DNA of 64,000 bases, taken from assembly GCF_003086895.1 (NCBI RefSeq), contig NZ_CP026004.1, positions 2,330,731 through 2,394,730 on the forward strand, written 5' to 3'. Of this stretch, positions 9,983-45,653 are shown piece after piece; position 1 is the stretch's first letter, and each line of letters starts with the position of its first letter. The position numbers and the translations under genes are program-made. The notes under the pieces were generated by a model. It saw only the letters and a list, made by a program, of their open reading frames with translations. It was not told where the DNA came from and made no database searches. This stretch comes from Stenotrophomonas sp. ESTM1D_MKCIP4_1. Lineage in GTDB: Bacteria > Pseudomonadota > Gammaproteobacteria > Xanthomonadales > Xanthomonadaceae.

Positions 9983-10384
9983 TCAACGTCCGCCGGCACT
10001 TGCCCGTCGGGCATGCACCAAGGTCTCAAGCTGCTGGACCAGCGCCTGGATGTGGTAGGGCTTTGCACAGCGTGGAACATCGGCAAACCGGCTGGGCACG
10101 TTGTCGTCGTAGCCGGACGTGAGCAGGAAGGGAATGCCGGCCGCGGCCAGGCGGTCCGCCAAGGGGTAGACCTGCTCGCCACCCAGGTTGATATCCAGGA
10201 GGGCGACATCGATGGGGTGCTCATCCACCAGCCGGTCCAGCGCGGCGAGGTCGCCTGCGGGCCCTACCGTGTGTACGCCTTTGAGTTCCAGATAGTCGAC
10301 CAGGAACATGGCGATGGCGAATTCATCTTCCGCCACAAGCACACGCACCCCTTGCCGCCCCGGAATATCAACGGCTTCCAACAC
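9983..10384 (-). CDS. Stand-alone response-regulator receiver
   Basis: 133 aa if started at the GTG at 10384, which sits 8 nt after AGGAG. A GTG nine bases upstream lies on top of that ribosome site. The receiver signature is complete: acidic pair Glu19-Asp20, phospho-acceptor Asp64 in ALLDINLGG, switch residue in FLLTSGYDD, and the conserved lysine in CAKPYH. There is no output domain, so it acts by protein contact, as in phosphorelays or anti-anti-sigma type partner switching of HWE kinases. It lies first in the operon with the HWE kinase. Confidence 0.88.
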   Translation of the reverse strand: MLEAVDIPGRQGVRVLVAEDEFAIAMFLVDYLELKGVHTVGPAGDLAALDRLVDEHPIDVALLDINLGGEQVYPLADRLAAAGIPFLLTSGYDDNVPSRFADVPRCAKPYHIQALVQQLETLVHARRASAGGR

Positions 10385-10485
10385 GTACAACACTCCTGTC
10401 CAGGCGGCACACCCGTCTGTTACAGGTGAAGGGTGACCAATCGGCCCACAAGAGCGCGTGACGACCCCGCCAAGCGCCCTCCCCT

Positions 10486-10511
10486 GTAGTGTCGAGCTTG
10501 CTCGACTCTAC
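10486..10511. repeat. Single symmetrical GTAG REP
   Basis: GTAG at one end and CTAC at the other enclose GTCGAGC-TT-GCTCGAC. The element is therefore symmetrical and its orientation cannot be assigned. It lies in the promoter gap between the divergent receiver gene and the OsmC-like gene. Confidence 0.8.
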
Positions 10512-10582
10512 GGTGCCATGCGCCGGCCCGGCAGATGGTGGAGAATCCCCACACCCCCATCCGCCGCTGCTTCGGAGCCCCC

Positions 10583-10996
10583 ATGGCCTACGCCCGCATC
10601 ACCTCCACCGCCGAAAACTACCTGCACCACGTCAGCAACGGCACCTTCAGCGTCGACGTCGACGAACCGGCCACCCTGGGCGGTCAGGGCCGTGGTTTCG
10701 CCCCTTTCGATCTGTACCTGGCATCGCTGGCCTCGTGCACCGCCATCACCCTGCGCATGTACGCCCAGCGCAAGGGCTGGGACCTGGGCGAATTCCAGGC
10801 CGAACTGCGTTCTACGCGCGATGAGGATGGCCGCCTGCACGTGCACCGCGTGCTGCACGCCAGTGCCGAACTCAGTGACGCCCAGTGGACGCGACTGCTG
10901 GAAGTCGTCGAGAAGACCCCGGTGACCCTGGTGATGCGCGAAGGCGCCCGTATCACCAGCGAGCGCGGTGACGGGGTCGGATCCGTTTCCGAGTGA
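10583..10996 (+). CDS. OsmC-like protein
   Basis: 137 aa from [17 protein letters not shown]. The OsmC/Ohr fold is shown by the central helix [21 protein letters not shown] with the conserved Cys52. The second cysteine of true Ohr/OsmC hydroperoxidases, normally on the later helix, is absent ([13 protein letters not shown]), so it resembles the single-cysteine YhfA-like branch and may not reduce organic peroxides efficiently. The last seven codons and the stop (GVGSVSE, from 10973) are provided by one arm of a GGGGTC repeat that has run into the gene. It converges with glgX. Confidence 0.8.
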
Positions 10997-11041
10997 GCAA
11001 CGGGGTCAGAGGCGTTTCCTGTTGGAAACGGATCTGACCCC
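10973..11041. repeat. GGGGTC-type hairpin repeat between convergent genes
   Basis: An arm GGGGTCGGATCCGTTTCC (10973-10990), a related direct copy (11002-11019) and the complementary arm GGAAACGGATCTGACCCC (11024-11041) form a strong hairpin, the tight version being 11002-11041 with a 4-nt loop. It probably terminates both osmC-like and glgX transcripts. The same family recurs at 58550-58587, 60554-60592 and 60641-60679. Confidence 0.8.
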
Positions 11042-11056
11042 ATGCGCTACGCGCCG

Positions 11057-13177
11057 TCAGGCTGCGCTGCTTGACGCCAGCAGGCACAGGCTTCTGGCTG
11101 GCAGCGTCCATTGGCCTTCGTCATCCATTTCCAGTGGTGCGTCATCGGTCTGCAGCACCACGCGCCGGAACGACAGGGTTTCATCGGAGGGCTTGAACCG
11201 CTGGACCTGCTCACTTGGGTTCAGCAACAGCGCCAGGCTGACGTGGCGACCAGGTTCACGCAGACCGCTGTCGGGGCTGCGGCCGTCCAGCACGATCAGC
11301 AGTGCACGCTGCTCCGGGCTGTGCCAGTCGCCCTCGTTCATCGCCTCCCCGTCCGGCCGACGCCATTCGATGTCGCGCATTCCAAGCGATTCATCGTAGT
11401 CACCGGTCAGGAAGCGATTGCGCCGCAGCAGCCCATACCGCCTCCGCAACGCCAATGCACGGCGCACGAATGCAGCCTGCGCCTGCGGGCCCGGCTGCGC
11501 GGCGCGCTCCCAGTCGATCCAGCTCAGCGGGTTGTCCTGGCAGTAGGCGTTGTTGTTGCCCTGCTGGGAATGGCCGAACTCATCGCCGGCAAGCAGCATT
11601 GGAGTTCCCTGCGCCAGCAGCAGCGTGGCCAGAAGGTTGCGCATCTGCCGCGAGCGCAGGGCAAGGATGTCCGCATCTTCGGTATCGCCCTCCACGCCGT
11701 GGTTGCACGACAGATTGTGCGAATGGCCATCGCGGTTGTCCTCGCCATTGGCCTCGTTATGGCGATCGTTGTAGCTCACCAGGTCATGCAGGGTGTAGCC
11801 ATCGTGCGCGGTAACCAAGTTGATGCTGGCCGACGGGCGGCGCCCATGATGGTCGAACAGATCGGCAGAGCCCGTGAACCTCGCCGCGAAATCCGGCAAC
11901 TGACCCGCATCGCCGCGCCACAACGCACGGGTCGTGTCACGGAACCGGTCATTCCACTCGGCCCACCCGGGAGGGAACTGTCCCAGCTGGTACCCGCCGG
12001 GCCCGATGTCCCACGGTTCGGCAATCAGCTTCACTTGGCTCAGCACCGGGTCCTGGCGCACCGCATCGAGGAAGCTGCCGGACGGGTCAAAGCCATGCCG
12101 CTCACGGCCGAGAATGGTTGCAAGGTCGAAGCGGAATCCATCGACGCGCATCTCGGTCACCCAGTACCGCAGTGAATCCATCACCATGCGCAGGGCACCG
12201 GCATTGGTCAGGTCGAAGGTGTTGCCGGTGCCGGTATCGTTGATGTAGAAGCGGCGGTCGTCGGCCAGACGGTAGTAGCTCGCGTTGTCGATGCCTTTGA
12301 ACGAGAGTGTTGGCCCCAGTTCATTGCCTTCCGCGGTGTGGTTGTAGACCACGTCCAGAATGACCTCAATGCCCGCGTTGTGCAGCCGGGCAACCATCTG
12401 CTTGAACTCGGCCACTGTTTCCAGCGAAAGATAGCGCGGCTGGGGCGCAAAGAAGCCGATGGTGTTGTACCCCCAGTAGTTGCGCAGGCCACGTTCCAGC
12501 AACTGCTGGTCATCCACATAGGCATGCACAGGCAACAGCTCGATGGCGGTTACACCCAGATACGCCAGATGGTCCACCACCGCATCGTGCCGCAGTGCAG
12601 AGAACGTGCCGCGCTCTGCCTGGGGCACACCGGGATGCTGCATGGTCAACCCGCGTACGTGCGCCTCGTACATCACCGAGCGGTCCCAGGGCGTGGCCGG
12701 CGCACGCTCGCTGCCCCAGCTGAACGCCGGGTCGATCACCGCGCAGCGGGGCATGTACGGCGCACTGTCGCGGCGGTCGAAACTCAGGTCGGCATCACGG
12801 TGCCCCAGCGTGTAGCCAAACAGGTGCGGTGCCCACTTGAGCTCGCCCACGATCTGCTTGGCATAGGGATCGAGCAGCAGCTTGTTGGGATTGAACCGGT
12901 GGCCTTCCTGGGGTGCATAGGGCCCATGCACACGGTACCCATAGCGTTGGCCGGGACGCACGTCCGGCAGGTAGCCATGCCACACTTCATTGGTGTATTC
13001 GGGCAGCGCGATGCGCTCGATCTCGCGGTTGCGCGCATCGAACAGACACAGTTCGACCTTGGTTGCATGCCGTGAATACAACGCGAAGTTCACCCCGAGC
13101 CCATCCCAGGTCGCACCCAGCGGAAACGGCCTGCCCTCGCGTACGCGCGAGCTCTGCACCCACTTACGCGCTGCCAT
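11057..13177 (-). CDS. glgX: Glycogen debranching enzyme (isoamylase type, GH13_11)
   Basis: 706 aa from MAARKWVQSS, with GAGGA about 10 nt upstream; an ATG five codons earlier is possible. An N-terminal CBM48 domain (GATWDGLGVNFALYSRHATK) precedes the GH13 barrel. Catalytic landmarks are FRFDLATILGRE (nucleophile Asp), KLIAEPWDIGPGGY (acid/base Glu) and TAHDGYTLHDLVSYN (transition-state Asp). It cleaves alpha-1,6 branches of glycogen or its limit dextrin, giving linear maltodextrins for TreY and MalQ. It is the last of seven overlapping genes, and its start lies within the end of the DUF2934 gene. Confidence 0.93.
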   Translation of the reverse strand: MAARKWVQSSRVREGRPFPLGATWDGLGVNFALYSRHATKVELCLFDARNREIERIALPEYTNEVWHGYLPDVRPGQRYGYRVHGPYAPQEGHRFNPNKLLLDPYAKQIVGELKWAPHLFGYTLGHRDADLSFDRRDSAPYMPRCAVIDPAFSWGSERAPATPWDRSVMYEAHVRGLTMQHPGVPQAERGTFSALRHDAVVDHLAYLGVTAIELLPVHAYVDDQQLLERGLRNYWGYNTIGFFAPQPRYLSLETVAEFKQMVARLHNAGIEVILDVVYNHTAEGNELGPTLSFKGIDNASYYRLADDRRFYINDTGTGNTFDLTNAGALRMVMDSLRYWVTEMRVDGFRFDLATILGRERHGFDPSGSFLDAVRQDPVLSQVKLIAEPWDIGPGGYQLGQFPPGWAEWNDRFRDTTRALWRGDAGQLPDFAARFTGSADLFDHHGRRPSASINLVTAHDGYTLHDLVSYNDRHNEANGEDNRDGHSHNLSCNHGVEGDTEDADILALRSRQMRNLLATLLLAQGTPMLLAGDEFGHSQQGNNNAYCQDNPLSWIDWERAAQPGPQAQAAFVRRALALRRRYGLLRRNRFLTGDYDESLGMRDIEWRRPDGEAMNEGDWHSPEQRALLIVLDGRSPDSGLREPGRHVSLALLLNPSEQVQRFKPSDETLSFRRVVLQTDDAPLEMDDEGQWTLPARSLCLLASSSAA

Positions 13178-31932: not shown

Positions 31933-31991
31933 GTAGAGTCGAGCTTGCTCGACTGCACCGGCCAACAGCAGTCGAGCAAGCTCGACTCTAC
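31933..31991. repeat. Inverted pair of GTAG/TCGAGC REPs
   Basis: A forward copy begins at 31933 and a reverse copy ends at 31991, with about 15 nt between. It lies in the 332-nt gap between the divergent genes at 31849 and 32182 and directly abuts the minisatellite at 31996. Confidence 0.88.
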
Positions 31992-31995
31992 AAAG

Positions 31996-32091
31996 GCCAG
32001 AGCAATGCCAGAGCAAAGCCAGAGCAAAGCCGGAGCAAAGCCGGAGCAAAGCCGGAGCAAAGCCAACGCCAACGCCAACGCCAACGCCAAC
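31996..32091. repeat. Compound minisatellite: six 11-bp then five 6-bp units
   Basis: Six copies of an 11-bp unit (GCCAGAGCAAA/GCCGGAGCAAA variants, 31996-32061) run directly into five copies of GCCAAC (32062-32091). The unit changes from CCAG to CCGG halfway, as expected from slippage. The rest of the 31850-32181 gap holds only the REP pair and about 90 nt before the TPR-like gene, so this array probably lies in its promoter region. Confidence 0.9.
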
Positions 32092-32181
32092 GCAGCCGAG
32101 CCTGCCCCACCCCCACAAACGCTTGTTGCCGCGGAACACTGCGCCTACCATCGGTAAGCCCTTCCGCCACTCTTCTTCCCG

Positions 32182-33777: not shown

Positions 33778-33949
33778 GCGGAAGCTCCAGAAAGTCCAGT
33801 TGCGTTGATGCAGCCGACCATTCTAAGCCGTCTGCCGGGGCGGGCCGAAACCCTGCCGGATGGCACCCCCCTGCGGCGGCGCCCGCCCCCTTCATCCAGG
33901 GGCGGTCATCTGGCTGTAAAATCAACGGTTTTTGGCCCCTGGCTACTTG

Positions 33950-34603
33950 ATGGCGAACGCCGCGCAGCCGGTCCTGGGTGGACCGGAGTTCCTCCGCCTG
34001 CTTGCCCGTCTCAGCGACGGCGCGATGCCGGCCAGCAGTCCCGCCCTGACCGATCGCCTCGGCCAGTGGGTGGACTGGAGCCGTGCCGTGGCCCTGTCCG
34101 GGGCGCTGGACGGACGTCTGCCCGAGCCGGGCGAGGCCGCCGAATCGCGCGAGGACCTGCTGGCCGATTGCGCCCATGCCGAGGCCAGCCTGCGGGCCTC
34201 GATCCGCGAGGATGCCGAGGCAGAGCGCCTGCTCGATCTGGCCGAAAGCGCCACCCAGGCCAACTTCGCCTCGCTGCGGCAGCGCTACCGGGTGCTGCAG
34301 CAGGCCATCCAGACCGCCACCGGGCGCCTGCGCGGTCGCCTGCGCGACCAGCTGGTGCAGGCCTCGCCCGAACTGGCGCGGCTGGCCGAGGTCGACGCGG
34401 TGATGGAACAGACCCTGACCCCCCGCGAGCACAGCCTGCTGGGCACCGCACCGACGGTGCTGGCAGCCCGTTTCGAGCGCGTGCACGGCCAGCCCGGCTG
34501 GCGCGCGCCCTTCCGCAATGACATGCGCAGCCTGCTGCTGGCCGAACTTGAACTGCGCTTCCACCCGATCCATGGGCTGCTTGCAGCCCTGCGCTCCCAC
34601 TGA
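33950..34603 (+). CDS. DUF3348 protein, first gene of a stator-like operon
   Basis: 217 aa from MANAAQPVLGGPEFLRLL. It is nearly all helical and acidic (EDLLADCAHAEASLRASI, RYRVLQQAIQTATGRLRGRL, NDMRSLLLAELELRFHPIHG) with no membrane segment or known catalytic motif. I recognise it as DUF3348, which accompanies DUF802, an OmpA-domain protein and DUF2894 in Xanthomonadaceae and Burkholderiales. It ends 10 nt before the DUF802 gene. Its steady presence with the membrane pair suggests a cytoplasmic subunit of the complex (inference). Confidence 0.75.
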   Translation: MANAAQPVLGGPEFLRLLARLSDGAMPASSPALTDRLGQWVDWSRAVALSGALDGRLPEPGEAAESREDLLADCAHAEASLRASIREDAEAERLLDLAESATQANFASLRQRYRVLQQAIQTATGRLRGRLRDQLVQASPELARLAEVDAVMEQTLTPREHSLLGTAPTVLAARFERVHGQPGWRAPFRNDMRSLLLAELELRFHPIHGLLAALRSH

Positions 34604-34613
34604 CCGGAACACC

Positions 34614-36845
34614 ATGTCCAGAACTGCATTCCATGTCGTTGTATTCCTTGTCGGCCTGCTGGCCGTGTGCTGGATCGGCATCGGCTACGTCGCGGTGCAT
34701 CCGTTGGGCGCGGCCGTCGCGGCGATCATCGCGGCCTGCTACATCGCCGGCGGCGTGGAGCTGTACCGCTACCGCCAGGCCAGCAACGGGCTGCGCGCCG
34801 CGCTGAACGACCTGGCCGCCGCGAAGGACGGCCTGGCACCCTGGCTGGAACGCGTGCCGCTGGCCCTGCGCAACGCGGTGCGCCTGCGCGTGGAAGGCGA
34901 GCGTACCGCCCTGCCCGGCCCGGTGCTGACCCCTTACCTGGTGGGCCTGCTGGTGCTGCTGGGCATGCTGGGCACCCTGCTGGGCATGATGGATACGCTG
35001 CGCGGCACCGGCCTTGCGCTGCAGAGCGCAACGGACATGGCCGCCATCCGTGGTTCGCTGGCCTCGCCGGTACAGGGCCTGGCCGTGGCGTTCGGCACCT
35101 CCATTGCCGGTGTAGCCAGCTCGGCCATGCTGGGCCTGCTCTCGGCCCTGCTGCGCCGCGACCGCCTGCAGGCCGTACAGCAGCTGGACCGTGCGATTGC
35201 CGGTGAACTGCATCCGTATTCGCAGGCGTGGCAGCGCGCCGAATCGCTGCGCCTGCTGCAGGCGCAGTCGGCCGCCCTGCCCGCACTGGTGGACCGCCTG
35301 CAGGCGATGACCAGCGCCTTTGAACAGCACAGCACGGCCGCCAACGAGCGCCTGCTGGCCGGCCAGTCCGACTTCCTCACCCACAGCCAGGCACTGCAGG
35401 AACGACTGGCGGTTTCGCTGCAGCAGTCGCTGCGCGAAGGCGCCGAGGCCAGTGCCGCCGCCATTGCCGGTGCGCTGCAGCCGATGGCTGAAACCACCCT
35501 GGCGGGACTGGCCAACCATGGCCAGGCGCTGCATGCGCGCGTCGAAAGCGCCGTGCAGCAGCAGCTGGCCGGCCTCAGCGAAGGCTTCGAGCGCAGCCGC
35601 GTGGCCACCGAAGCGAGCTGGGCCAGGATCGTGACCGAGCAGACCCAGGCCCAGCAGGCACTGGTGGCCGATCTGCGCCAGCACCTGCAGGCCTTCAGCG
35701 AGGGCCAGGGCGCACAGGCCGAGACGGTGCTCGCACGCATCGGCGAGCGCCTGCAGGCCGACGCCGCCGGCAACACCGAGGCGTGGCGTGCTGCCGCAGA
35801 GCAGCAGCAGGCCGTGAACGCCGCGCTGGTGGAGCGCCAGCAGCAGGCACTACAGGCGATCGGCGCACAGCTGGACACGCAGGCACAGGCGCTGTTGCAG
35901 GCATTGGACGAGCGCCATGCCGCGGGCCAGTCGCTGCTGCAGGATCACGAGGCGCAGCGTTCGCAGGACTGGCAGGCAGCACAGGCCGCCGCCGCCAACG
36001 CGCATGCCGAGCTGCAGGCGGGCTTGGATGCGCGCGAACAGCAGCGCCAGGCGCGCTGGGATGCGGTGGCCGCCGAGCTGCAGCAGGCACATGCCAGCCT
36101 GCAGACCCAGCTGCGGGCCGGTGACGCGCAGCGCCTGCAGCAGTGGAGCGCAGCACTCGATGCCATCGCGCAGGGCCTGGCCGAGCGCCAGCAGCAGGTC
36201 TGCGAGACCCTGGCCAGCACCGCGCAGCAGATCGGCGAGAACGGCCGCGCGCAGGCCAGCGCCACCCTGGCCGAAGTCTCCACCCTGCTGCAGACCGCCG
36301 CCGACGCCCCCAAGGCTGCGGCCGAGGTCATCAACGAACTGCGCAGTACCCTGTCCGAGAGCCTGGTGCGCGACAACAAGATGCTGGAAGAACGCGGCCA
36401 CCTGCTGGCTACCGTGCAGACGCTGCTGGAAGCGATCAACCACGCCTCGCACGAACAGCGCAGCGCCGTGGACGCGCTGGTGGGCGGCTCGGCCGAGCTC
36501 CTGGAACGGGTCGGCAGCCGCTTCACCGACCACATCGCCGCCGAGATCGGCAAGCTCGACGGCATCGCCGAGCACCTCAGCGGCAGCGCAGCGGACGTCG
36601 GCCAGCTGGCCGGCACCTTCGGCGCCGCGGTCGAGCAGTTCGGCGCGGCCTCCACCGAGCTGTCCGGGCGCCTGGAACAGATCGGCGGCGCGCTGGACGC
36701 TTCGCTGGCGCGCAGCGATGAGCAGCTTGCCTACTACGTGGCGCAGGCGCGCGAGGTGGTCGACCTCAGCCTGCTGTCGCAGAAGCAGGTGATGGAAGAA
36801 CTGCAGCAGCTGGCCACGCGCCGCGGCAAGGCCGGCAACGCATGA
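34614..36845 (+). CDS. DUF802 protein: MotA/ExbB-like channel with long coiled-coil tail
   Basis: 743 aa. Four membrane helices: about 6-26, 31-50, 107-127 and 155-180. The second pair matches the MotA/TolQ/ExbB proton-channel core: VGLLVLLGMLGTLLGMMDTL for the third helix and PVQGLAVAFGTSIAGVASSA for the fourth. Residues 185-735 are one long run of heptad-like Ala/Gln/Leu/Glu helices with many near-repeats, which should form a cytoplasmic coiled-coil tail. The gene overlaps the MotB-like gene by ATGA. The architecture (short channel, very long tail) resembles ZorA of Zorya systems more than flagellar MotA. Function is unproven. Confidence 0.8.
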   Translation: MSRTAFHVVVFLVGLLAVCWIGIGYVAVHPLGAAVAAIIAACYIAGGVELYRYRQASNGLRAALNDLAAAKDGLAPWLERVPLALRNAVRLRVEGERTALPGPVLTPYLVGLLVLLGMLGTLLGMMDTLRGTGLALQSATDMAAIRGSLASPVQGLAVAFGTSIAGVASSAMLGLLSALLRRDRLQAVQQLDRAIAGELHPYSQAWQRAESLRLLQAQSAALPALVDRLQAMTSAFEQHSTAANERLLAGQSDFLTHSQALQERLAVSLQQSLREGAEASAAAIAGALQPMAETTLAGLANHGQALHARVESAVQQQLAGLSEGFERSRVATEASWARIVTEQTQAQQALVADLRQHLQAFSEGQGAQAETVLARIGERLQADAAGNTEAWRAAAEQQQAVNAALVERQQQALQAIGAQLDTQAQALLQALDERHAAGQSLLQDHEAQRSQDWQAAQAAAANAHAELQAGLDAREQQRQARWDAVAAELQQAHASLQTQLRAGDAQRLQQWSAALDAIAQGLAERQQQVCETLASTAQQIGENGRAQASATLAEVSTLLQTAADAPKAAAEVINELRSTLSESLVRDNKMLEERGHLLATVQTLLEAINHASHEQRSAVDALVGGSAELLERVGSRFTDHIAAEIGKLDGIAEHLSGSAADVGQLAGTFGAAVEQFGAASTELSGRLEQIGGALDASLARSDEQLAYYVAQAREVVDLSLLSQKQVMEELQQLATRRGKAGNA

Positions 36846-37480
36846 GCGACGAACTGGAGGTCGACGGCGGCTCACACGCCCCGATCTGGGCGGCATTCGG
36901 CGACCTGATGTCGGTGCTGCTGGGTGCCTTCGTGCTGATCCTGGTGGGCGTGGTGGCGGTGCAGCTGGAACTGTCGCAGCGCCTGGACCAGGAAGTGAAG
37001 CAGCGACAGGCCGAAGCCAAGCGCCTGCAGACGCTGGAACAGGCGCTGGCCGGCCCCTTGGCGGCCGGCCGGGTGACCCTGGTCGATGGCCGCATCGGCA
37101 TCAGTGGCAGCGTGCTGTTCGCATTGAACTCGGATCAGCTGCAGCCGGAGGGCCAGGAACTGCTGCGCAGCCTGGCCGTGCCGCTGGCGGCGTACCTGGG
37201 GACGCGCGAGGAGATTCTGATGGTCAGCGGCTTCACCGATGACGCGCCCATCCGCGATGGCAACCGCCGCTTCGCCGACAACTGGGAACTGTCCGCGCAG
37301 CGTTCGCTGACCGTGACCCGCACCTTGATTGCCGATGGCGTTCCCGCCGATGCGGTGTTTGCCGCCGCATTCGGCAGCGAGCAGCCGGTCAGTTCCAACG
37401 CAGATGAAGCCGGCCGTGCGCGCAACCGCCGCGTGGAGATCGCCCCGATTCCCAAGCCCAAGGCCGGTGATGACAAGTAA
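36842..37480 (+). CDS. MotB-like protein: one membrane helix plus OmpA peptidoglycan-binding domain
   Basis: 212 aa. The single N-terminal helix HAPIWAAFGDLMSVLLGAF carries Asp21 in the same place as the essential proton-binding Asp of MotB (ADFM) and ExbD/TolR. A short coiled linker follows (QRLDQEVKQRQAEAKRLQTL), then an OmpA/MotB domain: SGFTDDAPIRDGNRRFADNW, ELSAQRSLTVTRTLI and GRARNRRVEIAPIP. It should anchor the stator to peptidoglycan. It is coupled to DUF802 (ATGA) and overlaps DUF2894 by 11 nt. Confidence 0.85.
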   Translation: MSDELEVDGGSHAPIWAAFGDLMSVLLGAFVLILVGVVAVQLELSQRLDQEVKQRQAEAKRLQTLEQALAGPLAAGRVTLVDGRIGISGSVLFALNSDQLQPEGQELLRSLAVPLAAYLGTREEILMVSGFTDDAPIRDGNRRFADNWELSAQRSLTVTRTLIADGVPADAVFAAAFGSEQPVSSNADEAGRARNRRVEIAPIPKPKAGDDK

Positions 37481-37850
37481 TCCGCGCGCACCGCTGGATA
37501 CGCTGCAGGCATTGGTGCGCGACCTGGACGCAGGTTCGCGCAGCCTGCAGCACTACCCGCAGGTACCGATGCTGGACCAAGTGCGCAGCGAGTGGAGCGC
37601 GCTGCGCAGTGAACTGCAGGTGCGGCGCTCGCTGCGTGCCGAAGCCCCCGCCGACGGCGGCCCGCTGAACTCGGCAGTGCTGGTGCAGCGCATGCTGGAC
37701 ACGATGCAGGCCACCAGCCCCGGCTACCTGCGGCACTTCATCGACTACATCGATACCCTGTCGTGGCTGCAGGCGTTGCAGGAAAGCACCGCCAACGCCG
37801 CCGATGCAGTGAAGCCCAAGCGCGCCCGCAAGCCCCGCAGCGCGGGGTGA
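37470..37850 (+). CDS. DUF2894 protein, last gene of the stator-like operon
   Basis: 126 aa from MTSNPRAPLDTLQALVRDLD, overlapping the OmpA-domain gene by 11 nt. It is helical (LQALVRDLDAGSRSLQHYP, NSAVLVQRMLDTMQATSP, YLRHFIDYIDTLSWLQAL), ends in a basic tail (KPKRARKPRSAG) and has no signal or membrane segment. It matches DUF2894, which is found with DUF802. It probably binds the cytoplasmic part of the complex; function unknown. Confidence 0.75.
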   Translation: MTSNPRAPLDTLQALVRDLDAGSRSLQHYPQVPMLDQVRSEWSALRSELQVRRSLRAEAPADGGPLNSAVLVQRMLDTMQATSPGYLRHFIDYIDTLSWLQALQESTANAADAVKPKRARKPRSAG

Positions 37851-37862
37851 TGCGCATGGCGC

Positions 37863-37924
37863 TGCCGGCCAGCGGCCGGCACTACCACCGCGCCAAGCCT
37901 GGTAGTGCCGGCCACTGGCCGGCA
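37863..37924. repeat. Inverted pair of GTAG/GCCGGCC REPs beside the transposase gene
   Basis: A reverse copy (37863-37885, ending CACTAC) and a forward copy (37902-37924, starting GTAG with arms TGCCGGCC/GGCCGGCA) sit just downstream of the RAYT gene. The last base of the pair is adjacent to the RAYT stop codon at 37925-37927. Confidence 0.9.
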
Positions 37925-38371
37925 TCAGCTCCACACCGACCACGCATACGGGTATTCGCCGATCTGTTTGGCCAGACCAGCCCGGACACGGTTTCCCATG
38001 ATGTACGACGCCTGCCGCGCCAATGAATCCTCCGCCCTCACCGCATGGTCGAAGTAGCCCGGCTGCCAGACGGTCTTCTGGAAACCACGCAGGCGATTCA
38101 ATGCCAGCGCACTCGAAGACTTCAGACGACGTGCAATATCCGCAAGGTCGGATGCGTGCAGCTCGAACATCCAGTGCACGTGATCTGGCATCACCACCCA
38201 TGCCAGTGGTTGAACGAGCCCCCGATCTTCGAGGTATCGGAACTGATCGATGACACACCCTGATGCGGCAGCGCTTTCAGAAAGACGACTGCGTTGATGG
38301 GTGGTTGTGCTGAGGACGTACACCTGCCCGATGATGGATCGTCGGCCGAGTCGGAGGCGATGGCTGCTCAT
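37925..38371 (-). CDS. REP-associated tyrosine transposase (RAYT)
   Basis: 148 aa from MSSHRLRLGRRSIIGQVYV. The Y1/HUH nuclease signature is VVMPDHVHWMFEL (His-x-His) and the catalytic Tyr lies in SYIMGNRVRAGLA. The RAYT-specific stretch FQKTVWQPGYFDHAVR is also present. It is a single-copy enzyme of the IS200/IS605-related group that mobilises REP palindromes rather than itself. Both flanks carry REPs with GCCGGCC arms (37863-37924 and 38448-38470), which should be its cognate substrate family. The other two GTAG families in the window probably belong to other RAYTs in the genome. Confidence 0.92.
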   Translation of the reverse strand: MSSHRLRLGRRSIIGQVYVLSTTTHQRSRLSESAAASGCVIDQFRYLEDRGLVQPLAWVVMPDHVHWMFELHASDLADIARRLKSSSALALNRLRGFQKTVWQPGYFDHAVRAEDSLARQASYIMGNRVRAGLAKQIGEYPYAWSVWS

Positions 38372-38447
38372 GGCCCATGGTGAGACAGGCTGTTGAGGGG
38401 TGAACGTCGGGGCTTGGCGCGAGGGGGGATCGGGATTGTCTGGAAAT

Positions 38448-38470
38448 TGCCGGCCAGCGGCCGGCACTAC
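38448..38470 (-). repeat. REP upstream of the RAYT gene
   Basis: A single copy in the reverse orientation (arms TGCCGGCC/GGCCGGCA, ending CACTAC) lies between the RAYT start and the entA stop. With the downstream pair it brackets the transposase gene. Confidence 0.88.
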
Positions 38471-38484
38471 CACGGGCAAGGGGG

Positions 38485-39243
38485 TCAGCCGCGCAGGGTG
38501 GCGCCGCCGTCGACGTACAGGTCGCTCATCGCCACATGGCCGGCCTGCTCGGACAACAGGAACATCACCGACTGGGCGATGTCATCCGGCGTGGCCAGTT
38601 TGCGCAGCGGTATGCCCGCTTTGAAGGTATCCAGGTTGCCGGCGATGACCCGCTCGGCGCCGTGCGCGTCCTCCCACATGCCGGTCTGCATCGGGGTCAG
38701 GGTGGAACCCGGCGCGACGATGTTGCAGCGGATGCCCAGCGGCGCCAGTTCCAGGCCCAGGCAGCGGGTGAACATCGTGGCGGCGGCCTTCGAGGCCGCA
38801 TAGGCGGCCATGCCGTGCCGTGGCACGCCCGCCGCATTGGAACTGACGGTGACGATCGCGCCCTGCCGTCGCGGTGACATCACCCGCGCCAGCGCACGGC
38901 CCACATGGAACACGCCATCGGCATTGACCGCGAACACGCGCCGCCACTCATCGTCGCCGGTCCCGACCACCTCGCCCACATGCAGTACACCGGCCACGCT
39001 GGCAGCCAACGCAATCGCGCCGACTTCAGCCTCCACGTGGTCGACCAGCGCATCCACTGCGGCGCTGTCGGTCACGTCCAGTGCAAGCGCCAACACGCGC
39101 GCATCGTCCACTGCAGGACGGTCGCGATCGGTGGCCACCACTGTGCACCCCGCCGCGGCCAGCAGCCGCACCAGTGAAGCGCCGATACCGCCGGCCGCGC
39201 CGGTCACCAGCGCCACGCGCCCTTCAAAGCCGGTCAACCGCAT
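38485..39243 (-). CDS. entA: 2,3-dihydro-2,3-dihydroxybenzoate dehydrogenase
   Basis: 252 aa, short-chain dehydrogenase. NAD binding is seen in [19 protein letters not shown], and the catalytic Ser, Tyr and Lys in VTVSSNAAG and [14 protein letters not shown]. EntA-like features include the [12 protein letters not shown] loop and the ending [14 protein letters not shown]. It oxidises the isochorismatase product to 2,3-dihydroxybenzoate. It is the last gene of the siderophore operon and overlaps entF by 10 nt. A REP follows its stop. Confidence 0.92.
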
Positions 39244-42200
39244 GCTGCACTCTCCTGTTGTTCATCCCACTGATGCAGCCGCGCCGACAACCACGGCGCC
39301 AGCTGCGCTACGGCATCGCGGCCGGTCAGTTCGGCATGCAGGAACGGCAGTTCCAGCGCCTGCACCCTGCGCGCATGCGCCATCCACAACGCCGATTGCA
39401 GCTGCGGCCGCGCCTGGTGGTCGCGCCCGGCGCGCACGTGCACCAGGGTGCCATCGAACGGCCGGTGATGATGCTCGCGGATCAAGCGGTTGGTACCGGT
39501 CACGGCACGCACCACACCATCCAGGACGCTGTCGGGCAGACTGCCCAGCGCGCTGCCGCCCCGGCGCAGGAAGGCAAGGATCCGCTCGCGGCTGTCCAGT
39601 TCCGGATGCGCATCGGGATCATGGCCGGCAATGGCCAGCAGCGCGCGCAGCGCGGCGATGGCGTCGGGTTCCGGTTCGGCCCGCCAGCATTCACTGGGAT
39701 AGGCATCCAGCAGCACCAGCTCGCCCACTTCACGGCCGATTTCGTGCAGGCGCACCGCCATGGCCTGGGCCAGGATGCCCCCCACCGACCAGCCCAGCAG
39801 ATGGACCGGTCCCTGCGGCTGCAGGGTTGCGATGCGGCGCACATACGCGTTGGCCATCACCTCGATGCTCGACGGCAGGGCCTGCTGGGGATCCAGTGCC
39901 GGCGACTGCAGGCCATGCACGGTGCGTGCCGGCTGCAGCGCGCGCGCCAGTGTGCGGTAGTTCCAGGCGATGCCACCGGCAGGATGCACGACGAACAAGG
40001 GTGGCAACGCGTTGTCCGCCGTCGCCAGGGTGATCACCGGCCCCAGCGCGTGGTCGGCCAGAGCGGGGGGCTCGGCAATGCGCGCGGCCAGTGCGGCCAC
40101 GGTCGGCTGCGCGAACAGTGCGCCCAGCCCCAGGTCGCAGCGCCACCGCTGTTCGATGGCCAGCAGCAGGTGCACGGCCGAGAGCGAATCGCCGCCCAGG
40201 CTGAAGAAGTCCGCGTCCACGGCCACCGGCGTCTGCCGCCCCAGCGCCTGTGCAAACAGTGCCGCCAGTTCATGTTCCAGCGGCGTGCGCGCGGCCAATC
40301 CACCGCCGTCCTGCCGCGGCGGCTTCGGCAGTGCTGCGCGATCCAGCTTGCCGTTGGCCGTCACCGGCCACTGGTCCACGCCAACGAAGGCCGAAGGCAG
40401 CATGTAGTCCGGCACGCGCGCGGCCAGATGGCTGCGCAGCGTCGCTGCATCGGCCAGTGCTGTGGGCACATAGGCCACCAGCCGCGCATCGCCGGGGGCG
40501 TCCTGCCGCAGCAGCACTTCCACCCGGTCCATGCCCGGCACCTCGCGCAGTCCCGCCTCGATCTCGCCCAGTTCGATGCGCAACCCACGCAGCTTCACCT
40601 GATGGTCGCTGCGGCCGAGGTATTCCACCACGCCGTCGGCACGCCAGCGTGCGACATCGCCGGTGCGATAGATGCGCTGCCCCGGCAGGAACGGATCGGC
40701 CAGGAAACGCTCCGCGGTCAGGTCATCGCGGCCCAGGTAGCCACGCGCGAGCTGCACGCCGCCCAGATACAGATCACCGGCTACGCCGACCGGCAGCGGC
40801 TGCATGCGTGCATCGAGCACATACAGGCGCGTGTTCCATACCGGGAAACCGATCGGCACCGGTCGCGACCGGTCCGCGGCCGAGGCAGGCCAGTAACTGA
40901 CATCCACCGCCGCTTCGGTCGGCCCATAGAGGTTGTGCAGTTCGGCGTGCACGCGGTCATGGAAGCGGTCACGCAGCGCCGCATCGAGCGCCTCGCCACT
41001 GGTGAACACCCGCCGCAGGCGCAGGCCTGCCGAAGCGGGTGCGGCCAGGAAGGCATCGAGCATGGACGGCACGAAGTGCGCGGTGGTGATGTCGTGCGCG
41101 CGGATCAGCCGCGCCAGTTCGGTCGGGTCGCGGTGCGCATCGGGACCGGCCAGCACCAGCGTCGCCCCACACAGCAGGGGCAGGAAGAACTCCCACACCG
41201 ACACGTCGAACGTGGCCGGGGTCTTCTGCAGCACGCGGTCATCGGCGGCAAACCCGTAATGCGCGCGCATCCACAGCAGGCGGTTGACGATGGCGCGATG
41301 TTCGATGACCACGCCCTTGGGCTCGCCGGTCGAACCGGAGGTGTAGATGACATAGGCCGCGTCGTCAGGCGACGGCTGCGGCCACGGTGCGGCGAAACTG
41401 ACGGCGGTCCACTGCGTGGGCGGCAGCACCGGCACGCCGCCCAGGCGGGGCTGCACCTCGGCGGCGGCCAATACGCAGGCCGGTCGCGCTGAAGTGAGAA
41501 TGCGCGCCAGACGGTCATCGGGGTGGGCAAGGTCCAGCGGCAGATAGGCAGCACCGGCACGCAGCACCGCCAGCAGTGCCACCATCAGTTCCAGCGAACG
41601 CGGCAATGCCACCGCCACCACGCTGCCCGGGCCGACACCCATGGCGCGCAGCTGCGCGGCAAGGGCGAAACTGCGTGCTTCCAAGGCGGCGTAGTCCAGC
41701 GAGTGATCGCCAAACACCAGCGCCGTCGCCTGCGGGTCGCGGTCCATGCCCTGCTGCAGCAGTTCGACCAGCGTGGTGTCCGGCAAGGCATGGGCCGTCG
41801 CGTTGAAACCGTGCACGGTGGTCTGCGCCTCTTCAGGCGTCGCCAAAGGCACCTGGCGGAGATCATCCGCCTGCAGCGCGGCCGACACGAAATGCAGCAA
41901 CCGCGCGGCGTGCGCCTGCACATCGGCCGGGCTGTACAAGGCGGGGTTGGCTTCGATCTCAAGATCCAGCCCTGCCTGTCCGTCGCCGCGGAAACCCAGC
42001 GTCAGGTCATCCACCGGGCCGGTGCACAAAACGTCCAGCGTGGCCTGCACGCCGGCCAGTGCCATCGGCTTGTAGAACGGCTGCACGTTCACCAAAGGCC
42101 CGTGCAGGCGCTGCTGCGCGCCGACCAGGCCCAGGTCCCGGCGCAGCTGCTCGCCGCGGTAGCGCCCCTGCTTGCGGCCCTGGCTCAACTGACGGCCGAT

Positions 42201-43121
42201 GCTGCGCGCAAATGCTTCCGCGCTGCCCTCGCCCGCCGCCACCCGTAGCGGCAATACGTTCATCACCATTGCCGGCACCCGCGCCGAGGCATTGCCGAGA
42301 CGCCCCATGTAGGGCACGCCCAGCACCACTTCGTCGGCCGCACTCATGCGCCGCAGATACTCGGCCGACAGTGCGGTGAGGACATCCGGCCAGGGTTGCA
42401 GCCAGCGCACCGCGGTCTGCAGCAACAGGTCACGGAACGCGGCATCCAGCGGCTGCACCCAGCGCAGCGCGTCATCACTGGCCGCCGCCGTGCCCGCCAG
42501 GCCTGCACCGGCCGGCGCGCCCCGCAGCTGCTCGCGCCACCATTGGCCTGCCTGTGCGCGACGCGCATCGCTGCGGTAAGCCACATCATCGGCCAGCACC
42601 CCGTCCAGCGCCGGCAACGGGTCGCCGCTCCGGCCTGCATGCAGCGCGCAGACGCGGTCGGTGAACAGCGCCATGCCATAGCCATCGGCCCCGAGGTGGT
42701 GCACGCGCAGGTACCAGACCCAACGCTGCCCACCCAGGTCGAACAACACCTGCTGGCTGATGCGGTCGCGGGTGGGATCGACCGGCGACAGGCGGTCAGC
42801 CTGCATTGCGGCGCGGGCCGCTGCGTCCGTGTCGGCTTCGCCGGACAGATCGAGCACCGATACGTGCGGCACATGCGCAGGGTCATGCCATTGCCGGGGC
42901 TGGCCATCCTCCCCTTCCACGAACCGCAGCGCGAACGCCTGCGCTTCGCCGGCCGCCTGGTTGGCTGCGGCCACGAACGCACGTGCGTCCAGCGCACCCT
43001 CGATCCACACGGCGTGGGCCGTGTTGAAGGACGGGTTGTCCGGCGCCAGCCGCTGGGCGAACCACAGCCCCGACTGCGCTTCGGTCAGCGCCACCGGCAT
43101 GGCCTGCCCCGCTCCGTTCAT
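39234..43121 (-). CDS. entF: Enterobactin-type NRPS (C-A-PCP-TE)
   Basis: 1295 aa from [20 protein letters not shown]; the start overlaps the carrier-protein stop (ATGA). Condensation domain to about 430, with HHLGADG (His142, Asp146). Adenylation domain about 450-950 ([38 protein letters not shown]). Carrier Ser979 in LGGDSL. Thioesterase Ser1112 in GWSVGG. It should condense dihydroxybenzoate with an amino acid (serine in EntF) and release an oligomer. All catalytic residues are present. No phosphopantetheinyl transferase gene lies in the window. Confidence 0.93.
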
Positions 43122-43375
43122 GCCTGCCCGGCAGCCTGCAGCTTCTGCACCACCGCCCACCACTGGCGCAGCGTGCTGTATTCGGCCAGGTGCGAGAACT
43201 CCAGCGGCAGGCCGGTATTGCCCCAGGCCAGGACCAGGCCGAGCATGCGCATCGAATCCAGATCCAGGTCCATCAGGTTCTCATCGTCGCCGATCTCGGC
43301 GGCGTCGCAGTCAAGCACGCGCGCCACGTCGGCCCGCATGCGCTCCAGATCCAGAGTGTCACTGCTGCCCATCAC
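43118..43375 (-). CDS. Free-standing aryl carrier protein
   Basis: 85 aa. The phosphopantetheine site is Ser41 in DLDLDSMRMLGLVLAW. The surrounding helices (MRADVARVLDCDAAEIG, YSTLRQWWAVVQKL) match the C-terminal aryl carrier domain of E. coli EntB. It carries dihydroxybenzoate loaded by EntE to the EntF condensation domain. The gene overlaps both neighbours by 4 nt. In E. coli this domain is fused to isochorismatase, so here EntB is split into two proteins. I recall it labelled entB' in S. maltophilia. Confidence 0.88.
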   Translation of the reverse strand: MMGSSDTLDLERMRADVARVLDCDAAEIGDDENLMDLDLDSMRMLGLVLAWGNTGLPLEFSHLAEYSTLRQWWAVVQKLQAAGQA

Positions 43376-44004
43376 AGCACCTCCAGCAGGTGGTCGGTGG
43401 TCATCGGCACGCCACTGGTGCGGGCGATCCAGTGCAGGGCCTGGTCATGGTCAGCACGCGAGAAATCGGCCACCGCATCGGCGGCAATGAAGGCTTCGAT
43501 GTCGCGCTGGAAGGCTTCGGCCACCGTGGCGGTGCAGCCGATATGCGCATACACGCCGGTCACCAGCAGCTGGTCGCGGCCGCGAACGCGCATCAGCGTT
43601 TCCAGGTTGCTGCGCTGGAATGCGCTGTAACGGTGCTTCACCAGCACGTGTTCAGCGGCCAGCGGCGCCAGTGCGTCGATGATCGGTTCATGCTCGTCGC
43701 TGCGGCGCATGCCCGGCCCCCACAGATCGGCCTGCAGGCCGCGGTCACGCCGGTCCTGGTCGCCGTGCTGGGCGGTGTAGAACACCGGGATACCGTGCGC
43801 ACGGCAATGCGCCAGCAGGCGCGCGATGTTGGCCACCGCCGGGCGCAGCGGTTCGGCGTCGGCATCGAAGGCGGCCAGGAAGTAGCGCTGCATGTCGTGC
43901 ACCAGCAGGGCGATGCGATCGCGCTGCGGGCGCCACGGGCCACGCGCCGCAGGCAGTTCAGCAGCGGTCGGCAAGGGGTACGGGGTAATGCGGGGCAGCG
44001 CCAT
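43372..44004 (-). CDS. entB: Isochorismatase, without carrier domain
   Basis: 210 aa. It hydrolyses isochorismate to 2,3-dihydro-2,3-dihydroxybenzoate and pyruvate. The catalytic Asp is in ALLVHDMQRYFL, with the conserved LVKHRYSAFQRSNL and GVYAHIGCTATVAEAF stretches of EntB. It ends at the point where the E. coli protein continues into its carrier domain. Start and stop overlap entE by 1 nt (TGATG) and the carrier gene by 4 nt. Confidence 0.92.
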   Translation of the reverse strand: MALPRITPYPLPTAAELPAARGPWRPQRDRIALLVHDMQRYFLAAFDADAEPLRPAVANIARLLAHCRAHGIPVFYTAQHGDQDRRDRGLQADLWGPGMRRSDEHEPIIDALAPLAAEHVLVKHRYSAFQRSNLETLMRVRGRDQLLVTGVYAHIGCTATVAEAFQRDIEAFIAADAVADFSRADHDQALHWIARTSGVPMTTDHLLEVL

Positions 44005-45653
44005 CAGCGCGTTCCTCCTGTCTGTTGCAGATGACGCGCGCGCAGTTGCGCGCGCAGTTCACGGCGGCTGATCTTGCCGACCGCCGTGGTATCGAAACTG
44101 TCCACGAACACGACCTGGTCGGGCACTTTGAACGCCGCCAGGCCACGGCCGCGCATCCAGGCCTTCAACGCAGGGGCCTTGATCGGTTCACCCTGCTGGA
44201 TGACGAAGGCGCAGCTGCGCTCACCCAGGTAGTCATCGGGAATGGACACCACCGCCGCGTCGAACACGGCGGGATGGGCCAGCAGGTGATCTTCGATCTC
44301 CTCGGCGGAAATCTTCTCGCCGGCCCGGTTGATGTGGTCGCCTGCCCGGCCCTGCACCACCAGGTAGCCGCCCGGCAGCTGCTGCACGCGATCCCCGGTG
44401 CGGTAGAAGCCATCGTCGGTGAAGGCGCGGGCATTGGCCACGTCATCGTTGTGATAGGCGCCGATGGTGTACGGACCCCGGGTCAGCAGATGGCCCGCCT
44501 CACCCTCGGCCACGGGCTGGTCGTGGTCATCGACCACGCGCACTTCGTCGTCCGGGCTGATCGGGCGGCCCTGGCAGGCCACGATCAGCGCCTCGGGATC
44601 GTCCAACCGGGTGTAGTTCACCAGGCCCTCGGCCATGCCGAATACCTGCTGCAGGGTGCAGCCCAGGCCGTCGACGACCCGCCGCGCAGCTTCCGGCACC
44701 AGCTTGGCGCCGCCCACCTGCAGCACCTGCAGGCTGGACAGATCGTGCCGCGACGTGGCTGCCGCCTGCGCCCACAACAGGGCCAGCGGCGGCACCAGGC
44801 CACAGCAGGTCACCTTTTCGCGGGCAATCAACGGGAAGGCGGCATCCGGGCCGGGGCCGGGACTGAGCACCACCCGCGCGCCGGCATACAGCGCGCCGAA
44901 GAAGCCGGGGGAGCTCATCGGAAAGTTGTGCGCCGCCGGCAGCGCAACCAGGTAGACACTGTCGCGGTCGATGCCACAGATCGCATTGCTGGCCCGGAAC
45001 GAATAGAGGTAATCGTCGTGGGTCCGCGGAATCAGCTTGGGCAGCCCGGTGCTGCCGCCCGAGATCTGCAGGAAGGCCACCGACTGCGGGTCCGGGTCGG
45101 CCGGCAGCGTGCTGCGGTCGCCCTGCAGTTCACCCAGGGCAATGAATCCGTCGGCCTCGCCGTCGATGACCACATGCGCGATGGCCGGCACATCGGCCTG
45201 CAGCGCGCGTGCCAGCTCACGATGATCAAAGCCCTCGTGCACATCGGTGGTGATGTAGGCCGTGGCGTCGGCCTTGCGTGCGAAGTGCGCCAGTTCGGTG
45301 AGCCGATGCGCCGGCAGCGCGTACACCGGCACCAGGCCGGCACGGAACAGGCCGCACACGGTGGTGATGAAGCCGGCGGTGTTGCCCAGCTGCACCAGGA
45401 CGCGGTCGCCCGGCTGCAGCCCCTGCCCCAGCAGGCCGGCACCGATGCGCCCGGCTTCGTGCCACAGCTGTGCGTAGCTCAGGCGTACATCACCGGCCAC
45501 CACGGCGATGTCATCGGCGAACTGCTCTGCCCGCTCGCGCAGAAAGGCCGGGAAGGTCTCGCCACGCCAGTAGCCGGCGGCGCGGTAGCGCGCAACGCGC
45601 TCGGCGGGCCAGACCTGCCGCAGCGGTCGGGGAGAGGTTTCAACGTGATTCAT
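44004..45653 (-). CDS. entE: 2,3-dihydroxybenzoate-AMP ligase
   Basis: 549 aa. It activates dihydroxybenzoate and loads it on the carrier protein. Signs of the family are the N-terminal [16 protein letters not shown], the ATP loop [18 protein letters not shown], the aryl-pocket stretch [20 protein letters not shown], and the catalytic Lys in [12 protein letters not shown] near the C-terminus. It overlaps entC by 14 nt and entB by 1 nt. Confidence 0.94.

Follow-up and report, generated by a model that had tools for sequence, protein, structure and literature searches.

A Zorya type III operon in Stenotrophomonas: stator signature, the channel, shaft and head of ZorA, and core-like distribution in two genera

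What does a bacterium do with a stator-like channel protein that carries a very long cytoplasmic tail and shares its operon with a peptidoglycan anchor and two DUF-family proteins? The question is raised by four genes in a 64,000-nucleotide (nt) stretch of Stenotrophomonas sp. ESTM1D_MKCIP4_1 (contig NZ_CP026004.1, positions 2,330,731 to 2,394,730), here called the window, whose own numbering is used throughout. The original prediction, made from this DNA alone, took the four genes for an uncharacterised ion-driven stator and set them apart from Zorya defence by the missing ZorC, ZorD and ZorE. By their profile matches they almost certainly form a complete Zorya type III system, a known defence type with experimental support. 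Since protection by such a system has already been tested and published, the claim of an uncharacterised stator falls, and the system as such is not presented here as a new one. On balance we favour reading it as a type III motor in which the far end of the ZorA tail is a docking or activation site for the two partner proteins, ZorG and ZorF.

Identity of the operon and its stator signature

The four co-oriented genes occupy 33950-37850 on the + strand in the tight order zorG-zorA-zorB-zorF, and coordinates and Pfam assignments bear out the original description. The DUF3348 protein is encoded by zorG3 (33950-34603, +; 217 amino acids (aa), ATG start), the DUF802/channel protein by zorA3 (34614-36845, +; 743 aa, made up of channel, shaft and distal head), the OmpA protein by zorB3 (36842-37480, +; 212 aa, one membrane helix and a MotB-like OmpA/peptidoglycan-binding domain) and the DUF2894 protein by zorF3 (37470-37850, +; 126 aa, a short form without the N-terminal half of the family). 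Ten nt separate zorG3 from zorA3, zorA3 and zorB3 share 4 nt (ATGA), and zorB3 and zorF3 share 11 nt. As names for the two flanking genes conflict, we adopted those of PADLOC-DB (ZorG3 for DUF3348, ZorF3 for DUF2894); in the available text of PMC8565338 and PMC11890865 (2025) the two names are swapped, ZorF standing for DUF3348 and ZorG for DUF2894.

PADLOC type III profiles match all four products: ZorA3 (E=0, 1031 bits, residues 1-742), ZorB3 (2.1e-115), ZorG3 (6.3e-76) and ZorF3 (6.5e-63). Pfam gives DUF3348 on the zorG3 product (4.7e-60), DUF802 on that of zorA3 (1.1e-7, two units, both in the tail), OmpA on that of zorB3 (6.8e-17) and DUF2894 on that of zorF3 (1.9e-26, the best stretch being profile positions 96-184 of 185). 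The window thus holds the features of type III membership, a ZorA3/ZorB3 pair flanked by DUF3348 and DUF2894 proteins. PADLOC matched no ZorC, ZorD or ZorE to any of the four operon products at E 1, or to any of 97 neighbour proteins (12 encoded in the window) at E 1e-10. What the original prediction counted as a difference from Zorya is in fact the mark of type III, in which the DUF3348 and DUF2894 proteins take the place of ZorC, ZorD and ZorE.

Zorya type III was named by Payne et al. in 2021, with 6,401 instances, and a cloned copy from Stenotrophomonas nitritireducens protected Escherichia coli from phages (PMC8565338). The window shares the four subunits described for the type, and the tested copy likewise comes from Stenotrophomonas; the window copy has a short ZorF (126 aa), and nothing excludes membership. 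Phage protection by the window locus itself is assumed, by extension from the S. nitritireducens copy. With types I and II (ZorABCD and ZorABE, as described in PMC11890865) the window has in common the channel signature, the ZorB Asp, the peptidoglycan-binding domain and the long ZorA tail; it differs in having no ZorC, ZorD or ZorE and in scoring 34.4 bits against the ZorA_2 model NF033915, under the cut-off of 100. Elsewhere, ZorA and ZorD homologues in Xylella fastidiosa have been judged incomplete and poorly conserved (PMC9148166), and Cupriavidus necator H16 is reported to carry a Zorya system, the type not being stated in the text available (PMC12645576).

Relatives were collected by a scan of genome contigs, from which we used the best 80 of at least 567 loci in titled genomes (L062-L141). 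These span Stenotrophomonas, Xanthomonas, Dyella, Luteibacter, Rhodanobacter, Lysobacter, Pseudoxanthomonas, Cupriavidus, Caballeronia, Variovorax and an Alcaligenaceae, and by its closest relatives the host of the window operon is judged to belong to the S. maltophilia complex. All four genes are present in the same order in 79 of the 80 loci, the exception (L114) being a 3.65-kb contig that ends just past zorB. With start codons set by script, 67 of 79 loci have 10 nt between zorG and zorA, and in 76 of 79 zorA and zorB overlap by 4 nt. A further 59 loci all have zorA directly after zorG, and in 20 of 20 loci from more distant genomes, picked to include strong and weak matches (18, among them G385, come from the 68 positives of the G385 family and two from the eight of a class sample), all modules stand in order on one strand. 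Purifying selection is evident from median dN/dS values of 0.04-0.14 among 17 S. maltophilia complex sequences and 0.10-0.25 among 17 Xanthomonas loci. One locus titled Bacillus subtilis (L141, JAHREJ010000010.1) carries a Stenotrophomonas-like zor operon, and its title is probably wrong.

The stator signature holds up as originally proposed. The zorA3 product has four hydrophobic segments (about 8-26, 26-48, 108-126 and 158-180), in agreement with the four predicted membrane helices, and the zorB3 product has one (22-40). In the channel module (residues 1-260; 34614-35393, +) the polar residues Thr121, Thr162 and Ser163 are invariant in all 26 aligned sequences. Pfam MotA_ExbB (PF01618) reaches residues 114-191 with E 4.7e-4 and 20.4 bits, against a cut-off of 22.9. 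A profile of residues 1-260 built from the 26 sequences matches the solved type I ZorA chain 8vvn_C over residues 106-192 (E 2.7e-5), which supports the proposed kinship of residues 100-185 with the channel family; the alignment places Thr121 at the GT of the third membrane segment and Thr162/Ser163 at the TS of the fourth. Because of this profile match, ZorA is regarded as related to the MotA/TolQ/ExbB channel family despite the sub-cut-off Pfam score.

On the ZorB side, the profile matches the solved chains 8vvn_B (profile 9-209 of 216) and 8qyd_F (9-200) as well as MotB chains, and the Asp that had been placed at the MotB position, Asp21 (codon 36902-36904, +), is the predicted ion-binding residue, invariant in 29 of 29 aligned sequences. 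The 20 more distant loci all have an FGDLM, FADLM or FSDLM motif (19 found by script pattern; FSDLM read from the printed sequence of L227). The equivalents are D24 in type I and D21 in type II, whose ZorAB complexes are motors of 5:2 stoichiometry; ion flow, the tail and the peptidoglycan-binding domain all play a part in defence there (PMC11890865). By analogy with these, ZorA3 and ZorB3 very probably form an ion-driven 5:2 stator. Together with the PADLOC matches, the 8vvn and 8qyd alignments uphold the view of a pair of stator type, closest to ZorA/ZorB, in which one member has a long cytoplasmic tail and the other a peptidoglycan anchor.

The ZorA shaft and head and the two partner proteins

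Lengths were mapped in 39 full-length ZorA sequences, from the window and 38 of the 80 loci, leaving out L077 with its early stop. Across the set, the counterpart of residues 1-260 is 259-264 residues long, that of residues 300-550 spans 131-552 residues, and that of residues 550-725 is exactly 176 in 39 of 39 sequences. We therefore describe a shaft (residues 261-549; 35394-36260, +), helical by composition, variable in length and carrying the two DUF802 units, and a distal head (residues 550-725; 36261-36788, +) of fixed length, with the near-end consensus RSDEQLAYYVAQAREVIDLSMLSQKQ in an alignment of 25 sequences. Conservation of the head (0.70-0.90) is comparable with that of the channel. 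With channel and tip constrained and shaft length free, the protein looks like a drive shaft with a working end, and this layout points to where ZorG and ZorF could bind.

The original prediction gave ZorA about 550 residues of coiled coil; this tail is instead a shaft of variable length plus a conserved distal domain. From residue 231 to the end, 80 sequences show hydrophobic period peaks at 3.66 and 3.57 and nothing at 3.5, so the tail is not an ordinary heptad coil; in the window ZorA the 3.57 periodicity arises in the distal part. Insertions occur at several sites between about 284 and 522, and an initial idea that length variation is confined to residues 421-490 proved wrong. Length differences as multiples of the coil period were tested and gave no signal, the single 11-residue steps (743/754, 687/698/709) being suggestive only. 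ZorA sizes run from 625 to 1045 aa in L062-L141, in contrast to the component sizes reported as well conserved within types I and II (PMC11890865). A 595-aa reading comes from L077, a metagenome-assembled genome in which zorA (10001-11788) stops 123 nt before zorB, unlike the 78 other measured loci, possibly through a frameshift or assembly error. A search of the Protein Data Bank (PDB) with the head returned only a designed helical protein (E 0.053), nothing useful.

Hydrophobic-segment analysis found no membrane segment in ZorG3 or ZorF3. In a profile search ZorG3 had no PDB relative (best E 0.46), and profile-profile comparison of ZorG and ZorF had no outcome of note. The C-terminal half of ZorF is kept in all 38 aligned sequences; the window protein lacks the N-terminal half, as do those of 23 of 79 loci, five from Luteibacter and 18 from the S. 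maltophilia complex. ZorF ends in a Lys/Arg-rich tail (last 18 residues; 37794-37847, +) whose net charge is at least +4 in 78 of 80 sequences (the window and 79 loci), compared with 6% of shuffled proteins; charge is kept, the sequence itself is not. We read this tail as a putative contact to nucleic acid or to anionic membrane. DUF2894 (PF11445) also scored above cut-off in a Corynebacterium glutamicum control genome in which DUF3348 did not; a DUF2894 protein outside the type III context would inform on the function of this family.

Distribution, descent and genomic surroundings

Among 91 species genomes of the window's genus, DUF3348 (zorG) is found in 87 and DUF2894 (zorF) in 88, and DUF3348 in 35 of 35 species genomes of a Xanthomonas genus (that of G192). 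Each positive genome of the two genera has one zorG locus, second rows in both searches being pieces of the same match. G223 has zorF and zorA and no zorG match; G212, G216 and G260, the last 76%-complete, have neither DUF3348 nor DUF2894. As controls in the same 91 genomes, HSDR_N occurs in 47 (46 over cut-off) and SMODS in 10. ZorA_2 is over cut-off in none of the 91 and sub-threshold in 87, mostly on the type III ZorA itself. With 87/91 and 35/35, the operon behaves like a core gene in the two surveyed genera, a status for which we found no statement in the open-access literature, of which our coverage was partial.

Such figures argue for a different reading, which we consider unlikely, that type III is chiefly a resident envelope or housekeeping motor, for example in envelope-damage repair or signalling, and that phage protection in E. 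coli reflects a general envelope-breach response or over-expression. Searches of mobile elements lend it further weight. With ZorA 1-260 as query, no match was found in 50,697 phage records, 41 pattern matches in IMG/VR included no confirmed relative, and the 27 matches among 72,556 plasmid records all lie on replicons of at least 366 kb. The pattern typical of mobile defence (patchy within a genus, in defence islands, on mobile elements) is thus not what is seen in the window's genus and the Xanthomonas genus. Against this stands the patchiness between genera: DUF3348 occurs in 18 of the 54 genera in the family sample (70 of 198 genomes, with a second, sub-cut-off match in two), in 44 of the 141 genera surveyed in the G385 family (68 of 250 genomes), and in 8 of 369 genomes of the class sample. 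An operon so sparse among genera and in the class sample is not generally needed. Genus g338 of the G385 family, at least one mixed genus in a survey whose negatives are mostly not itemised, has two genomes with DUF3348 and one without. Moreover, direct anti-phage activity of a type III copy has been published (PMC8565338).

Descent cuts both ways. The zor operon and rpoB were compared in 55 genomes holding both; 63 had been searched for rpoB, four being dropped for a missing or split rpoB and four for a missing zorG, and G014, on a cut contig, was excluded beforehand. Distances correlate (Mantel rho 0.60, none of 2,000 permutations as high), which counts for a resident motor. The two trees share 31 of 52 splits; yet 8 of 35 well-supported zor splits conflict with supported rpoB splits, and among six genera tested, all rpoB-monophyletic, three (g1, which is the window's, g7 and g17) are not zor-monophyletic. 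Descent is therefore mostly, not strictly, vertical, and strict vertical descent is rejected.

Neighbours of zor repeat within genera and differ between them, which also counts against a resident role and rules out a single chromosomal site shared by all genera. Genes for siderophore-type biosynthesis lie to the right of zor in the S. maltophilia complex and some other Stenotrophomonas; in the window such a cluster (38485-45653, -), the common right-hand neighbour in the complex, encodes an SDR dehydrogenase, a 1309-aa NRPS with condensation, adenylation, carrier and thioesterase domains, an isochorismatase and an AMP-ligase. For a survey of genome context we assembled 97 neighbour proteins of 100-1400 aa; they come from 16 loci chosen as one per cluster, plus the window, and were called by a simple script that misses some genes. 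The defence islands thought worth looking for in the original prediction did not emerge, PADLOC at E 1e-10 marking at most six of the 97 (AbiLi, AbiLii, AriA, two RtcR-type models and HEC-01A, one member each), and this scarcity again suits a resident motor.

Directly 5' of zorG3 lies a conserved non-coding block (33890-33939, +), largely invariant or near-invariant across 13 aligned S. maltophilia complex sequences and possibly a promoter region; a sigma-70 consensus scan of the region 5' of zorG3 gave zero matches. On the other side, 3' of zorF, is a Y1 (IS200-like) transposase gene (37925-38479, -), RAYT-type by our reading, flanked by three copies of a palindromic repeat (37863-37887, 37900-37924 and 38448-38472; 25-nt arms, 96% complementary), the first beginning 12 nt past the zorF stop. 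Similar transposase genes sit in the right flank of several S. maltophilia complex zor loci. The window also contains an 11-nt tandem array of 6.7 copies (31991-32065) and a 6-nt array of 6 copies (32058-32093).

A working model and what it would mean

For the reading we favour, a motor that engages ZorG and ZorF through the ZorA head, we borrow the published model for Zorya types I and II. ZorA, with its four membrane segments, and ZorB, with the Asp21 helix and OmpA domain, would form a 5:2 ion-driven motor in the inner membrane. A phage perturbing or piercing the envelope would let ZorB grip peptidoglycan, and this grip would open an ion path past Asp21 and the ring of Thr121, Thr162 and Ser163, so that ion flow turns the ZorA pentamer together with its cytoplasmic shaft. 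The distal head at the shaft tip may then be the docking or activation site for soluble ZorG and ZorF, which would stand in for ZorC/D of type I and ZorE of type II, and the basic tail of ZorF may touch nucleic acid (or anionic membrane) to deliver the anti-phage effect. As no nuclease or helicase domain was found in them, ZorG and ZorF might bind incoming DNA and so block it, or call in an enzyme of the host. The sequences themselves show type III membership, the signature of channel and Asp, a channel and a 176-residue head of fixed length joined by a shaft that varies, and the basic ZorF tail; docking at the ZorA head and a nucleic-acid target are more speculative, with a chance at or somewhat below even.

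Several observations weigh against this picture. Pfam and NCBIfam reveal no enzyme domain, nuclease or helicase in ZorG or ZorF, and the MotA_ExbB score of ZorA stays under the curated cut-off (20.4 vs 22.9 bits). The likeness of the head to type I tails is weak (PADLOC ZorA1, 1.4e-6) and may come from helical composition. For a defence system it is unusual to be core in two genera, and likewise to have surroundings poor in defence genes; the first has its counterpoint in the patchiness between genera and within g338. As to function, the original prediction had offered a defence motor or a cell-shape device: type III identity speaks for the former, and no positive evidence for the latter was found.

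The lack of a nuclease or helicase domain in ZorG and ZorF would also suit a regulated ion leak, in which ZorAB collapses the membrane potential in abortive infection and ZorG and ZorF act as regulators. The 2021 authors proposed something close to it, with the two partners regulating ZorAB in place of ZorC/D/E (PMC8565338). We nevertheless hold a leak to be quite improbable: work on types I and II points to a tail-coupled motor and effectors such as the ZorE nickase (PMC11890865), and an indel-free head on a long shaft would be left without a reason. Finally, a flagellar-type or TolQR/ExbBD-type stator driving another machine, suggested by the MotA/TolQ/ExbB-like channel signature, the Asp-bearing single helix and the MotB-like OmpA domain, is highly improbable, given ZorA3 and ZorB3 matches far better than those of any MotA or MotB model, the fixed linkage to DUF3348 and DUF2894, the very long tail with its conserved end and the sub-cut-off PF01618 score.

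What this analysis adds on a known motor is its core-like presence in two genera, the three-part build of ZorA (channel, shaft and head) and the basic tail of ZorF. A published 'defence' motor is near-universal and single-copy in two genera, and in one of these HSDR_N and SMODS, two ordinary defence genes, are patchy. The core status of the operon in the window's genus and the Xanthomonas genus leaves room for a role beyond defence. Tentatively, and with its chances clearly below even, type III may be a resident, largely vertically inherited motor of innate immunity or envelope integrity, fixed as a single copy in Stenotrophomonas and Xanthomonas, in which a shaft of variable length and an indel-free head hand rotation to two non-enzymatic partners with no dedicated nuclease, and which would have a standing role beyond intermittent phage defence. 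Two questions become testable in this way: how a Zorya system without a recognisable nuclease delivers its effect, and whether there are defence systems that serve as fixed functions of the cell.

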